NCBI RefSeq assembly: GCF_024693525.1
Contig: NZ_JAILKR010000066.1
Coordinates: 1 to 12,270 of the forward strand
Direction: 5' to 3'
DNA length: 12,270 nt
Source of the DNA: Selenomonas sp.
Lineage (GTDB): Bacteria > Bacillota_C > Negativicutes > Selenomonadales > Selenomonadaceae
The position numbers were made by a program, and so were the translations under genes. Below are positions 1 through 12,270 of the stretch, one piece after another (the stretch's first letter is position 1; each line of letters opens with the position of its first letter). Below the pieces are notes generated by a model. The model had not been told where the DNA came from. It did not search any database and worked only from the letters and a program-made list of their open reading frames with translations.

Positions 1-149
1 CGCGTTTAACTGTTTTCCAACTCTTAATTAAAAGGCAAAAATTTCTTGTAGCGGGTTGTCACCGGTGGAGCGTTGGTACTGGGGCCCCCGCCGCCGGCGA
101 TTTACCTCGAACACGAACTGGGTACTACTCCCCTGCAAACTATAATTTT
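1..149 (-). repeat. Left copy of a diverged non-coding repeat, cut by the window edge
   Basis: Read on the minus strand, this stretch aligns in order and spacing with plus-strand 12080-12221. Matching blocks are 132-148 with 12080-12096 (16 of 17 identical, core AGTTTGCAGG), 70-81 with 12141-12152 (10 of 12), a GC-rich GCCGG/GCCACCGC block near 89-100, 23-45 with 12177-12198 (GAAATTTTT followed by TTAATTAAG, one indel and two substitutions), and the end AAACGCG at 1-7. It has no open frame of note. It lies beyond the terminator of the neighbouring minus-strand gene and continues past the window start. The function is unknown; it could be an interspersed repeat (REP- or MITE-like) or a structured RNA. 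Confidence 0.7.
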
Positions 150-157
150 CTTATACC

Positions 158-192
158 AAAAGACCCGCTGTCTTTTCGACAACAGGTCTTTT
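158..192 (-). terminator. Rho-independent terminator, possibly bidirectional
   Basis: An 8-bp stem, AAAAGACC (158-165) with GGTCTTTT (185-192), encloses a second short stem TGTC (169-172) with GACA (178-181). On the minus strand the stem ends in GGTCTTTT, 17 bp after the stop codon of the 209-901 gene. The A/T flanks are symmetric, so it could also work on the plus strand. Confidence 0.65.
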
Positions 193-208
193 CTATCGCA
201 AACTGCTT

Positions 209-901
209 TTATTTGACTTTTATCACGCCGGGCTGGATGATTTTCCAGTTGTCATTGCGATTCTGGAATTTGGCTGGCAGGCGGACTTTGATTTCTTTGC
301 AGGTACCCGCTTCGTAGTTCGAGGCAAAGGTCTCTTTCATACCGCCTTCCGTATGGAGCTTTTCATCGTAGTCATGGAGTGGATTCGGCACAACGACGAA
401 GGCCCCGCCTGTCTCGGGAACTGGCCACGCCCAGTAGGTGCCCTCAGTCAGCTGCTTGACCTCGGCGAACTTTGGCGATACCATGCCATTTTCCTGTGCC
501 GCATGGTCAAGGCAAATCAAAAACGTAAGCTGATGGGTGCCGGCAAAGGTTTCGCAGGCCTCCAAAGCCTTTGGCACATCCATGCTAGCCGCCAGATTGT
601 TATAATCCTTCAAAAACTCCGCCCAGACTTCCTCAGCTCCTGTCGATTCCAACGGGTCGGGCTCCGGCGGCACAATCGCCACCGGCTGCGATTCCTCAAC
701 CGGCAGCTGCTTACGTTTTAGTTCCTTAATTTCCTGCTGGAGTTTTGCGATATCCTGCTCCAAGACTTCAATCTTCAAGAACTGCCTGCGGCCACTGATA
801 AGTATCGAACTGTTATAAGCACCTACCACTAAGCTCACAATTCCAATGACGCCTACTAATACCAACATCACTTGCGCTACTAACGGCGGGAATAACTCCA
901 T
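209..901 (-). CDS. Membrane-anchored coiled-coil protein of unknown function
   Basis: The product is 230 aa and its family is not recognised. Residues 8-28 form one hydrophobic helix (MLVLVGVIGIVSLVVGAY) with no clear signal-peptidase site, so it is probably an anchor. Residues about 42-66 are a charged heptad-like segment (EVLEQDIAKLQQEIKELKRK), a likely coiled coil. A Pro-rich linker (about 67-85) follows, then a soluble C-terminal domain of about 140 residues rich in aromatic and acidic residues, with a GGMKETF stretch and the phrase VVVPNPLHDYDEKLH. The ATG at 901 follows AAAGGA at a long spacing of about 10 nt. It lies 27 bp downstream of the 929-1645 gene, which has the same anchor plus coiled-coil layout, so the two are probably one operon and may be partners. 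It ends at the 158-192 terminator. Confidence 0.8.
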   Translation of the reverse strand: MELFPPLVAQVMLVLVGVIGIVSLVVGAYNSSILISGRRQFLKIEVLEQDIAKLQQEIKELKRKQLPVEESQPVAIVPPEPDPLESTGAEEVWAEFLKDYNNLAASMDVPKALEACETFAGTHQLTFLICLDHAAQENGMVSPKFAEVKQLTEGTYWAWPVPETGGAFVVVPNPLHDYDEKLHTEGGMKETFASNYEAGTCKEIKVRLPAKFQNRNDNWKIIQPGVIKVK

Positions 902-9128: not shown

Positions 9129-9929
9129 TTATTCCACCAATACCGTCGGTTTACTGCTGCCCTTGAACATCAGGAAGTCATAATCCTGGAAGTTGATGCA
9201 GCGAAAGGTTACCTTGTATTTCTCAGCCTTTGGCAGCTCGGCCAGCGGGATGATATCGCTCGCCGTAGTCGAGCCTCCCGGTGGTACAAGCTGCTTTGCC
9301 TCGACGCTCTGGAAATCGCGCCCCGTTACCGGGCTCTTCATGGGCTCGCCTGCCTGGTCCAATGCCCGGACGGAAAGCTCAATGCTTGAAAATCCCTTGG
9401 ACATCTGATTCGTATAGAGCAGGCAGAGCTGCGGATGACCGGCAGCATCCATCGTAATCTGCGCATCCTTAAGCATCAGAATGAGTTCATTCGTCTCGTT
9501 GTTGATGAGCTTGCGATCCTTGTGCTTGAGCGACAGGACACCTGCCTGAGGTGCGTCCACAGACGGTTTATCCGTGCTCTTTTCCGCCGGTTCCGTCTGT
9601 GTCGGCTGCGGTACGTCGTTAGCACTCGACGAGTTATGAACTGCCATGATGCCAAGGCCCAGCACCGCCACTACGCCCAGCGTAATCGCCACAATCTTAG
9701 CCGTCGAAGAACGGCTCTGGGGCTGCTGGTAATAGCCGCCCTGCAGCCCCAGCTGCCCATTGGGGGGCATCGTCATTCCCTGGGGCTGCGAAACTGTCCC
9801 CATCGGCTGTGCCGGCTGTTGTGCTGGCTGCGGAGCAGCAGTGGCAGCTTCCGGCGTTACCCGGGCACCACAGTTCTTGCAAAATGTCGCATTATCCGGC
9901 AATTGAGTGTTACAATTCTTGCAAAACAT
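9129..9929 (-). CDS. Single-pass membrane protein with N-terminal zinc ribbon
   Basis: A 266-aa protein. Residues 1-24 are a zinc ribbon with C3, C6, C17 and C20 (MFCKNCNTQLPDNATFCKNC). A Pro/Gln/Gly-rich linker (about 25-74, with a GGYYQQPQ end), one membrane helix (about 78-97, KIVAITLGVVAVLGLGIMAV) and a C-terminal domain of about 165 residues follow; the latter begins with a Pro/Glu/Thr-rich stalk. With the ribbon in the cytoplasm, the C-terminal domain lies outside. The ATG at 9929 is chosen for GGGAGGA 7 bases upstream and because it matches the MFC start of the two neighbouring ribbon proteins; the frame stays open to 10058. It follows the PrsW-like gene by 58 bp in the same direction. 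The role is unknown; its topology would suit a substrate or partner of that protease. Confidence 0.85.
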   Translation of the reverse strand: MFCKNCNTQLPDNATFCKNCGARVTPEAATAAPQPAQQPAQPMGTVSQPQGMTMPPNGQLGLQGGYYQQPQSRSSTAKIVAITLGVVAVLGLGIMAVHNSSSANDVPQPTQTEPAEKSTDKPSVDAPQAGVLSLKHKDRKLINNETNELILMLKDAQITMDAAGHPQLCLLYTNQMSKGFSSIELSVRALDQAGEPMKSPVTGRDFQSVEAKQLVPPGGSTTASDIIPLAELPKAEKYKVTFRCINFQDYDFLMFKGSSKPTVLVE

Positions 9930-9987
9930 AATATAATCCTCCCTCAATCCATATCGTCCAAGGTTCCCTTCGTCTCCCATACAATCA

Positions 9988-11139
9988 TCAGGAAAGCGGC
10001 TGCGTGCCAGCCGCTTTCGCCTGCTGCTGTATCGTTGAAATCTGCCGTAGTCCCGCATGAAGCATGACCAGCAGGAAAATCCAAACGACTGCCATCAAAC
10101 CGACTTGGGTGATAAGCGGCATGATATGGGAAAGCAGCGGCATATCCCAAAGTCCATGGAGCACAATGCTGACCGCCAGGAACTTCAAAAAGCGCATATC
10201 CATCAGATGGTCTATCCGCAGGGGCTTATCCCCTTTGACCATGGCCAGCGCAGCCCCCGTGAGTCCAGCCCAGGCCACATGACCGCCCAGTGCCAGAGCC
10301 CCGCGCAGGTAGAGCACCGTCAAACTGTTGCTCTTGGCGATATACCCCGCCGTTTCAAATACGGCAAAGCCAGCGCCAACGGCGGCTCCAATCAGCAGGC
10401 CATTTAAAATAAACTTCTTTTCCTGCCCCCGCAGGAAGTAGGCAATGACCATGACTTTTCCCACTTCTTCCGCCAACCCCACCAGGAACGTACTGGTATT
10501 GTTGAGCTTGTCAAAGCCGATAAAGCCATAGACAAACATTGTCATAATCAGCGACATAACGCCGCCGATAAAGAAAACCTGGGTCGTCTCAAAGATACTG
10601 ATATTTCGCGGTGCATTGACCTCAAAAAAGAAAATCAAGGCCGAAAAAGGTACCGCCAACGCTCCGATGAAGATTACGCCCGGAGCCGCCAATTTATTGC
10701 CCAGCATCTGATTCATAAACAACAGCCCCAGCATGGTTACCGCCAGCACCAAAAACACCCGCGAATAAAGCCATGGATGCGGCCAATCGGTAGAAATCTG
10801 TTCCTCTGGCGGCGTTGTTGCCGCCGTTCCATAGATGAAGATTTGTTCCGCTTCCTGTTTCGTATGCTTGCGGAATACATTCTCCACCAAGTCTTTCATC
10901 TTTAACTCAACGTGTTCCGTTCCACCGGTCATACGGTTGACGTTATCGATGAGGGAATCCAGCGTTCCCTTCTGCGGCGGCAAGCGCCGTCCATAATAGG
11001 GCCGCTGGTACATCGGCTGTCCCTGAAAGCCCGCGGCCATCCCCGGCCGCCCCAACGGTGGTGCGACTACTGGCTGGCCGCACTTCGTACAGAAGCGTTC
11101 ATCCCCCGCCAGCTGTGTCCCACAATTCACACAGAACAT
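9988..11139 (-). CDS. PrsW-type intramembrane protease with N-terminal zinc ribbon
   Basis: A 383-aa protein. Residues 1-25 form a zinc ribbon (C3, C6, C17, C20). A Gly/Pro/Tyr linker (about 26-55) and a charged helical stretch (about 60-100) follow, then seven to eight membrane helices from about 124. The PrsW signatures are intact: EEVGK (224-228), FAVFE (258-262), GGHVAW (285-290) and HGLWD (328-332). These Glu and His residues form the active site of the PrsW/CPBP glutamic protease superfamily. B. subtilis PrsW cleaves the anti-sigma factor RsiW, but no sigma or anti-sigma gene is seen here. The ATG at 11139 has a strong GGGAGGG. It is probably co-transcribed with the 9129-9929 gene. A 10-bp hairpin occupies its last codons (9993-10017). 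The substrate is unknown. Confidence 0.88.
   Translation of the reverse strand: MFCVNCGTQLAGDERFCTKCGQPVVAPPLGRPGMAAGFQGQPMYQRPYYGRRLPPQKGTLDSLIDNVNRMTGGTEHVELKMKDLVENVFRKHTKQEAEQIFIYGTAATTPPEEQISTDWPHPWLYSRVFLVLAVTMLGLLFMNQMLGNKLAAPGVIFIGALAVPFSALIFFFEVNAPRNISIFETTQVFFIGGVMSLIMTMFVYGFIGFDKLNNTSTFLVGLAEEVGKVMVIAYFLRGQEKKFILNGLLIGAAVGAGFAVFETAGYIAKSNSLTVLYLRGALALGGHVAWAGLTGAALAMVKGDKPLRIDHLMDMRFLKFLAVSIVLHGLWDMPLLSHIMPLITQVGLMAVVWIFLLVMLHAGLRQISTIQQQAKAAGTQPLS
9993..10017 (-). other. Hairpin in the last codons of the PrsW-like gene
   Basis: A perfect 10-bp inverted repeat, AAAGCGGCTG (9993-10002) with CAGCCGCTTT (10008-10017), with a 5-nt loop, ends inside the last sense codons. No T-run follows, so it is not a normal terminator. 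It may tune expression or mRNA stability between the two genes. Confidence 0.5.
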
Positions 11140-11175
11140 GGTTCATCCCTCCCTAAATTCCATATTCTGATAGAT

Positions 11176-11204
11176 ACCATATCATGGAAAAAATACAAGT
11201 TCAA
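11176..11204 (-). promoter_or_regulatory. Candidate promoter of the PrsW-like gene
   Basis: On the minus strand TTGAAC (11199-11204), a 17-bp spacer and TATGGT (11176-11181), each four of six matches. Just upstream (11203-11221) short AATC/GATT units repeat, which could be a binding site. Confidence 0.45.
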
Positions 11205-11286
11205 TCCAATCGAATCCGATTTAACGGACCTCTAATTGAAGATTAACGATTATCAAACAATTCATGCGTAACATGTACAAAGAGAA

Positions 11287-11298
11287 CGTATATATACG
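11287..11298. promoter_or_regulatory. Perfect 12-bp palindrome in the divergent promoter region
   Basis: CGTATATATACG is a perfect palindrome 55 bp upstream of the plus-strand zinc-ribbon start. It contains TATATA, so it could be a -10 region, an operator or both. I see no matching -35 box at good spacing. Confidence 0.35.
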
Positions 11299-11304
11299 AT
11301 GCAA

Positions 11305-11335
11305 AATCAGGTATCTGGATTAAAGATACCTGATT
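11305..11335 (+). promoter_or_regulatory. 12-bp hairpin directly before the ribosome binding site
   Basis: AATCAGGTATCT (11305-11316) and AGATACCTGATT (11324-11335) form a perfect stem with a 7-nt loop. It ends about 7 bp before the GAGGG of the 11353 gene and has no T-run on the plus strand. It could be an operator, a translation-control hairpin or a transcript-stabilising 5' structure. On the minus strand it is followed by TTTTGC, so a weak minus-strand terminator is possible. Confidence 0.55.
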
Positions 11336-11352
11336 GAGAAATGAGGGATTTT

Positions 11353-12063
11353 ATGTTTTGCATGAATTGTGGAAAAGAGATGCCAAACGACTCGAAATTC
11401 TGTATAAACTGCGGTGCACCAGTTGACACGGCAGAGCCTACCCCACCAGTCCAGGATCAGCCATCGGTACCGCAGCCGCCCCAAGAACCACAGCCCGTTA
11501 TCCAAGCAACGGCCCAACAGCCGCAACCGCAGGCTCAACCGCAACCGCAGCCACAGCCGCAGGCTCAACCGCAGGCACAGCCACAGCTACAGACGCAAAC
11601 ACAACCGCAGTCCGTCCAATTTGCGGCCGCAGCGCCTAATCCGAATTACTCCCTGCCCTACGGTCCGGCAGCCAGTGGAATGGCGCCAGCCTATATGGGA
11701 ATGGGCCCAGACTTCACGGCCGAAGAGATCTCCCTTATTAACAAGGGGTGGACCTTCTGCAAAGCAGCCGCTATTATGCCGATTGGCTACGGACTATTAC
11801 ACGGCTTTTTTAACTTTCCCGATATCACGCGAATTCTATCGATAGTCGCGGCCATCCTGCTCTGCATCGACAAGAGTTATTTGAGCCGTGTCGGCATTTT
11901 TATGTCGGCTTGGTACTACCTGGCAATTTTCGCCTGTCCACCGATTTACTTATACCATCGTGAAAAATTGACCGGTCACGGTCACGCCCTCTCACTGATC
12001 TACGGTGCGCTTTTTGCCATTGGAGTTTTAATAATCGCAGTAGCTATTGCTAAAATATCCTAA
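11353..12063 (+). CDS. Multi-pass membrane protein with N-terminal zinc ribbon and PQ-repeat linker
   Basis: A 236-aa protein and the only plus-strand gene here. Residues 1-24 are a zinc ribbon with C3, C6, C17 and C20 (MFCMNCGKEMPNDSKFCINC), closely like those of the two minus-strand neighbours. Residues about 30-87 are almost wholly Pro, Gln and Ala, with PQAQPQPQ-type repeats. The C-terminal part (about 122-236) has roughly four hydrophobic segments (137-152, 158-172, 178-200, 211-233) and short loops. No known family is recognised for that part. The ATG at 11353 is chosen because GAGGG lies 5 bases upstream and the start matches the MFC of its neighbours; an in-frame ATG at 11341 lacks a ribosome binding site. 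The PQ linker probably keeps the ribbon away from the membrane. The gene is divergent from the PrsW-like gene. Confidence 0.82.
   Translation: MFCMNCGKEMPNDSKFCINCGAPVDTAEPTPPVQDQPSVPQPPQEPQPVIQATAQQPQPQAQPQPQPQPQAQPQAQPQLQTQTQPQSVQFAAAAPNPNYSLPYGPAASGMAPAYMGMGPDFTAEEISLINKGWTFCKAAAIMPIGYGLLHGFFNFPDITRILSIVAAILLCIDKSYLSRVGIFMSAWYYLAIFACPPIYLYHREKLTGHGHALSLIYGALFAIGVLIIAVAIAKIS
11518..11615 (+). repeat. In-frame low-complexity repeat coding for Pro/Gln/Ala
   Basis: A run of CCGCAA, CCGCAG, GCTCAA and CCACAG hexamer variants codes for alternating Gln with Pro or Ala. The codons vary, so selection on the protein sequence is likely, but the tract could also change length by slippage in steps that keep the frame. 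Confidence 0.7.
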
Positions 12064-12079
12064 CGAAAAAGCGGCTGTG

Positions 12080-12270
12080 AAATTACAGTTTGCAGGTTAC
12101 AAAAATCTCATTCGAAGCAGCTCTTCGCCACCGCTAGGGACAGTGCCAACACTACGCGGGAGATGTTTTTCTAAACGAAATTTTTATCTTTAATTAAGCA
12201 TCGAAAAAGTTGCAAAACGCGCTTCGCTTGAACGGTAGCAATTTTTCGACGAACGGTGAGGATAAAAATT
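12080..12270 (+). repeat. Right copy of the diverged non-coding repeat, running to the window edge
   Basis: This copy starts 17 bp after the stop of the plus-strand zinc-ribbon gene. Positions 12080-12221 match the left copy (1-149, minus strand) block by block with nearly the same spacing: 80 against 86 nt between the two best blocks. The part after 12221 has no counterpart because the left copy is cut off. That part holds an inverted repeat, 12201-12213 with 12238-12249 (TCGAAAAAGTTGC and GCAATTTTTCGA), nested inside another, AATTTTTATC (12179-12188) with GATAAAAATT (12261-12270). GAACGGT occurs twice (12230-12236 and 12251-12257). No coding frame is apparent. Confidence 0.7.

Follow-up and report, generated by a model that had tools for sequence, protein, structure and literature searches.

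A dispersed double-hairpin repeat with a conserved tip in Selenomonadaceae, a putative structure-dependent mobile element

Genes and repeat copies in the window

The window (the whole 12,270-nt stretch analysed here, from contig NZ_JAILKR010000066.1 of Selenomonas sp.) is mostly 91–93% identical at the DNA level to loci L001–L004, with shorter pieces of L002 at 87–88%; L002 is from S. ruminis (genome G001), the closest named genome among those searched. The Sua5 protein encoded in the window has 96–98% amino-acid identity to its counterparts in Selenomonas contigs (best four). Positions 9129–12063 hold three adjacent genes for zinc-ribbon proteins (one PrsW-like membrane protease), and the last zinc-ribbon gene contains a proline/glutamine-rich repeat at 11518–11615. 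Both ends of the window are occupied by copies of a repeat, referred to as copy A and copy B, with the following features.

1..148, minus strand: copy A, outer arm of hairpin 2 and terminal inverted repeat (from alignment to the complete element)
132..148, minus strand: terminal inverted repeat of copy A, AAATTATAGTTTGCAGG (repeat finder)
158..192, minus strand: terminator-like hairpin and T-run of gene 209–901, adjoining copy A (found by eye, not counted as a terminator by the strict scan described below)
12064..12079, plus strand: conserved outer flank (P end) CGAAAAAGCGGCTGTG, which recurs at other copies
12080..12096, plus strand: terminal inverted repeat of copy B, AAATTACAGTTTGCAGG
12080..12270, plus strand: copy B, made up of the 5' arm and tip of hairpin 1 and the first part of its 3' arm, truncated at the window end
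12179..12188, plus strand: 5' side of a stem, AATTTTTATC, partner 12261–12270
12202..12213, plus strand: 5' side of the inner stem, CGAAAAAGTTGC, partner 12238–12248
12215..12230, minus strand: intact tip motif CAAGCGAAGCGCGTTT, GCGNAGC class
12238..12248, plus strand: 3' side of the inner stem, GCAATTTTTCG
12261..12270, plus strand: 3' side of the stem, GATAAAAATT, cut by the window end, pairing with 12179–12188

An earlier note on this DNA had read the two ends as one repeat in inverted orientation, and the reading held against shuffled sequence, the comparison it had proposed: positions 1–160 (minus strand) and 12061–12270 (plus strand) align locally with a score of 80, as compared to a mean of 24.9 (sd 4.3) and a maximum of 44 for 2000 dinucleotide-shuffled pairs of the window ends (0/2000 reach 80), which rules out chance similarity. 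The block singled out as the best one is indeed complementary at 16 of 17 nt (94%; 132–148 with 12080–12096, by repeat finder), two further blocks are common to both ends according to the repeat finder, and each copy lies 3' of a gene end as claimed (genes 209–901, minus strand, and 11341–12063, plus strand). The second copy does start at 12080 on the plus strand, and its proposed end at 12221 has to be moved, as copy B reaches the window end at 12270. Copy A is cut at position 1 within the tip motif, CGCGTTT (plus strand, 1–7) being the last 7 nt of the tip. Contigs of these genomes often end within copies of the element, and the repeats at its two ends are probably why assembly of this contig went no further; the element thus helps explain why such assemblies are fragmented.

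The complete element and its sister type

The type found in the window (type 1) is about 570 bp long in S. ruminis and has 17-bp terminal inverted repeats; complete copies measure 562–568 bp or 688–706 bp. Its borders are AAATTACAGTTTGCAGG (in varying forms) and the complement of this sequence, and the interior consists of two long imperfect hairpins, each about 160–220 nt (about 200 nt in S. ruminis), with a common 16-nt tip. The tips lie on opposite strands (in the orientation of locus L084, the tip of hairpin 1 is on the minus strand and that of hairpin 2 on the plus strand). The 575-nt copy in L084 has a computed DNA folding energy of −158 kcal/mol, as compared to −85.8 (sd 5.1) for 100 shuffles (z −14.2). 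Judged from reading frames only, this copy contains no transposase gene: its longest stop-free frame, about 120 codons, spans the palindrome. A short 337-bp form (L252) was discarded, as it contains a run of N.

Against the complete element, copy B scores 218 to hairpin 1 and 65 to hairpin 2, and copy A scores 240 to hairpin 2 and 70 to hairpin 1. The two copies look diverged because B is an arm of hairpin 1 and A an arm of hairpin 2, and their resemblance comes from the element being similar to its own reverse complement (about 63% in alignment). In S. ruminis we found at least 16 places matching copy B at 150 bits or more (40 of 48 candidates were scored) and many partial ones, with identities to copy B of up to 97%. 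The earlier note was partly right: the repeat is real and interspersed, with many copies per genome, and the stems do covary (see below); its alternative wording, old diverged copies of one segment, is replaced by different arms of one double-hairpin element.

Sequence outside the terminal repeats is also conserved at many type 1 copies, with either AAAAAGGGACTGTG on the one side or, on the opposite one, a hairpin about 115 bp long. This hairpin (GAAGCCTCCATAAG..CTTATGGAGGCTTC) and AAAAAGGGACTGTGAAA recur on the Q side (L252 before 3721, and L082), and from these Q-side flanks the element may be part of a larger composite with inverted ends of its own. The two 700-bp copies of L249 (5895–6599 and 15170–15876) carry another repeat between the hairpins, which is GC-rich and palindromic (CCTTCCCC..GGGGAAGG with GCGAAGCGC).

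A sister type (type 2, the G026 group) lacks the type 1 terminal inverted repeat and has just a variable outer stem. The covariance model R1, for which only type 2 units were used, matches type 1 hairpins over their full length (L084: 40.3 bits, E 1.5e-8) and the window at 12194–12249, minus strand (27.4 bits, E 5.5e-5, much of this score coming from the tip). Judged from these model matches, types 1 and 2 are one family. Inside one type 2 copy (L256:19518-19685) sits a second repeat of about 167 bp with CTAG on either side and inverted ends GGAATCGCTGATAAA / TTTATCAGTGCTTCC; it has dozens of copies of 89–96% identity in related genomes and looks like an ordinary MITE.

Stem pairing, tip and gene context

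Three alignments of hairpin units were used. In the type 2 alignment (A2, 43 copies; only units with the 5'-arm marker, L112 being absent and L318, which has a foreign 3' half, being kept), 97.1% of cells are paired, as compared to 87.1% in shuffles and 28.0–44.9% when the partners are slid by 1–3 columns. In type 1 units from several genomes (A3, 25 of 29 listed units, the other 4 being left out as sister type), 94.1% of cells are paired (74.6% shuffled, 38.1–53.6% slid). The compensatory changes that the earlier note had looked to as support are found: both sides have changed in 26 of 45 pairs in A2 (226 such cells, 70.1 in shuffles) and in 35 of 45 pairs in A3 (211 such cells, 56.3 in shuffles), counts that overstate the number of events because the rows are related and not independent. 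A1 holds 29 of 32 listed units, with L147 and L158 (chimeric 5' halves) and L037 left out. By eye, these three units have one arm replaced by another common sequence, CTGATTGG..AACAGGTCG..CCCAAGA..GATTGG; replaced-arm units occur in G026, G029 and a contig labelled Mitsuokella.

In A3 two GCGNAGC shoulders are opposed to each other. Pairing across the stem (97/98 cells) fits better than a separate mini-hairpin at each shoulder (86/98 cells within shoulders), which favours reading the shoulders as an internal loop in which G faces A and N is free.

Mismatches are biased between strands, with 111 A.G against 13 C.T, and with G.T to A.C ratios of 55:16 and 42:15 (pairs with a G.T consensus left out). 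In A2, wobbles take up 55 of 1803 cells at Watson-Crick consensus, or 145 of 1932 when three pairs with a U.G consensus are included. The mismatch bias suggests that it is probably the tip-bearing strand whose fold matters, be it as RNA or as DNA. It also bears on the idea of a selfish palindrome, whose arms would be kept paired only by template switching during replication, without recognition by a protein. In its favour, wobble intermediates between pair types are few, and in L254 (around 15008–15108) the tip segment of hairpin 1 faces the opposite way from that in the other type 1 copies read, as if one arm had been copied onto its partner by template switching in a palindrome. We consider it improbable as the whole explanation, since it accounts neither for the strand bias of mismatches nor for a nearly invariant 16-nt tip (one free base) in genomes whose stems differ widely.

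The tip, CAAGCGNAGCGCGTTT, was searched without mismatch in 380 genomes of the class, giving 551 matches in 34 genomes: 550 in 33 of the 189 family genomes and a single one among the 191 others, with 64 in the richest genome. The same pattern read backwards, as a control, gave 4 matches. With one mismatch to the A form allowed, 42 of the 189 family genomes match, a few of them probably by chance. All four bases are found at N; among 92 hairpin units, position 7 is A in 73, C in 14, T in 4 and G in 1, and the other 15 positions are identical in at least 90 of 92, in a census that takes only units with a pairing stem and is biased to the consensus, as tip-pattern or BLAST searches were the source of most loci. 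The motif is also present in 45 viral stretches, none of which matches the structure model at E 0.01, and we take these as chance; single tip matches such as L128 and L130 do not match the structure model either. Type 1 has no match at E 1e-5 in plasmids and phages, and type 2 none at E 1e-5 in plasmids.

The tip contains GCGNAGC, with N as its free base. The available parts of PMC4686876 describe d(GCGNAGC) mini-hairpins as having a GNA or GNNA loop (N any base) and at least two G-C pairs, as resistant to nucleases, and, for GCGAAGC, as having a Tm of 78 °C; such mini-hairpins are also treated in PMC10527192. That fold is known from synthetic DNA, and the tip of the element is known here from its sequence.

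A structured ncRNA family in many copies (or an RNA-guided element), with pairing selected in the transcript, would go well with strong covariation around conserved internal loops, and with the tip strand being more tolerant of G.U than of A.C. The scarcity of wobbles at Watson-Crick consensus in A2 speaks against it, and so does the gene context. Out of 39 listed type 2 copies, 6 lie too near the locus edge; the other 33, with genes called by a simple ORF rule, are 12 sense, 6 antisense, 8 convergent and 7 divergent. Such mixed orientation does not point in any obvious way to a 3'-UTR-type RNA, and the context does not look like that of an RNA tied to one transcript orientation. The window has 0 matches to Rfam above gathering scores, in line with the earlier note, which had recognised no named family; among 13 loci with copies the best hit is MIR8007, a microRNA (E 0.053, 29.1 bits as compared to a gathering score of 195), and HEARO and omega RNA gave no Rfam match above threshold. 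Of the 33 tip-bearing family genomes, 26 were tested for TnpB and reverse transcriptase (RVT_1); TnpB is found in only 11 of the 26 and reverse transcriptase in only 3, which rejects either as a general partner. On balance we rate the RNA reading as rather unlikely.

Adjacency to terminators is suggestive: the strict scan finds one at 8 of 30 flanks without a P or Q end (the 8 include a Q flank of L254 that was misfiled, and the 30 include a spurious one in L250) and at 39 of 2000 random positions, which are mostly coding.

Occupied and reversed sites, candidate partners and interpretation

For the type 2 sites 11 relatives were searched, and with the aligned ones picked for holding or missing the site (L269 and L275 were not aligned), one G026 copy is absent from 6 of 6 aligned relatives, a second is present in G026 and G038 and absent in G036, G029 and (other sequence) G032, and a third site is complex. 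Three type 1 copies of G151 are absent at two sites in G001 and at one site in G161 and G164, with ragged flanks at some empty sites. Several element sites are common to different species (e.g. other sites in G001 and G151), so movement would be slow. By eye, we saw no constant target duplication at occupied sites or in comparison with empty sites, some of them ragged. The empty sites show that the outer stem of type 2 belongs to the insertion, and we dropped the idea, raised by copy-specific inverted flanks, that type 2 had inserted into palindromes. We infer gains from these presence/absence differences, and mobility as such rests on the same comparison; losses could also explain single sites.

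Orientation differs between relatives as well. At the copy A flank, the hairpin 2 arm comes first in the window and in L004 (whose arm is 96% identical), and the hairpin 1 arm in L001 and L003; at the copy B flank, the window starts with hairpin 1 and L003 with hairpin 2. Because the contigs end inside elements, the reversal between the window and L003 could mean that an exchange inside the repeats inverted the entire 12-kb segment. The second L249 element is a case in which the element itself is reversed: both of its unique flanks are present and collinear in G001 and G151 (94% and 88% identical), and the order is hairpin 2 then 1 in G001 and hairpin 1 then 2 in G151. Either a flip between the terminal repeats or loss of the element followed by re-insertion at the same site would produce this arrangement. 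For the first L249 element, whose orientation was looked up in L350, no repeat end was found there.

Any mobilising enzyme is putative, and two known transposase groups can be weighed as sources. According to the available parts of PMC3733652, REP/REPIN are palindromic and extragenic with a hypothesised mobility; like them, our element is palindromic, mostly intergenic and without a visible target duplication, as would be expected if a RAYT (Y1) transposase moved it. Its units of about 160–220 nt instead of 20–40, the GTAG tag, which was not seen, and the distribution of the enzyme differ: of the 189 family genomes, 72 have Y1_Tnp (E 1e-3), namely 13 of the 33 tip carriers and 59 of the 156 tip-free genomes, which shows no association, and G001 and G026 are among the 20 carriers that lack it. 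The Y1 transposase as general partner is thereby rejected and the REP/REPIN reading contradicted as a general explanation; we give it very little weight overall. In L236 (near 2817) the P end of the element adjoins a remnant of an IS3-family insertion sequence that ends in the same sequence, which would suit a MITE cross-mobilised by such an insertion sequence. The relatives of this remnant in G151 and G161 (L282, L284, L285, L288, L291) were compared on one side, the one following the 3' end of the transposase, where they terminate in TGAACTGCTCCCCGTCAAGAGGACA or a near variant instead of the element's repeat; the join looks accidental, and an IS3-family origin is highly improbable. No partner insertion sequence with the element's ends was found, one candidate (the IS3 family) having been tested.

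Open-licence papers on Selenomonas repeats and structured RNAs gave no description of the element, and as far as these literature searches reach, the repeat family is real and previously undescribed. The closest likenesses are to folded intergenic repeats of Streptococcus (BOX, RUP and SPRITE), which in the available parts of PMC3049150 share strong folding, intergenic location, some nested insertions, past proliferation and slow new insertion. BOX is described there as modular, with 67–637 bp, and target duplications are reported for BOX and RUP; the Selenomonas element differs from these in showing no target duplication and in a tip conserved across the family with free stems. Bacterial MITEs such as Bcr1, NEMIS and ERIC (70–300 bp in the available parts of PMC3733652) are likewise non-coding, present in many copies and bounded by terminal inverted repeats, and the element is longer and has two hairpins, neither a target duplication nor a partner insertion sequence having been found. 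The lack of a visible target duplication is our reason for not filing it as a MITE. An analogy only is offered by the promoters of the phage N4 virion RNA polymerase, where the recognised form is a short DNA hairpin extruded by supercoiling and non-conserved stem bases are free (PMC4496689, available parts); those are phage promoters and not dispersed repeats.

Our preferred reading, to which we give a probability of about 55%, is a non-autonomous, structure-dependent mobile element of Selenomonadaceae, MITE/BOX-like and recognised as a folded single strand. Its unit would be a long imperfect hairpin in which nearly any stem sequence is allowed as long as it pairs and in which the tip is fixed; selection would act on pairing and tip and not on stem sequence. 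An enzyme acting in trans would recognise the folded, tip-bearing strand and move, copy or flip the element, and insertions would survive mainly between genes. Our guess is that the recognised form would be single-stranded or cruciform DNA rather than RNA. A bolder reading, possible and put forward only tentatively, is that the one family represents a new class of mobile, invertible hairpin, with a putative enzyme that reads the folded DNA strand via the GNA-loop tip, and with copies that flip in place.

The element comes in hundreds of natural variants, all of one folded structure and within a single bacterial family, and these separate the parts that would be recognised (tip and loops) from those that are free (stems), making the movement and flipping of such repeats directly testable. 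If the new class were true, its free stems would let the element persist in genomes whose copies have little in common beyond the tip and short loops.
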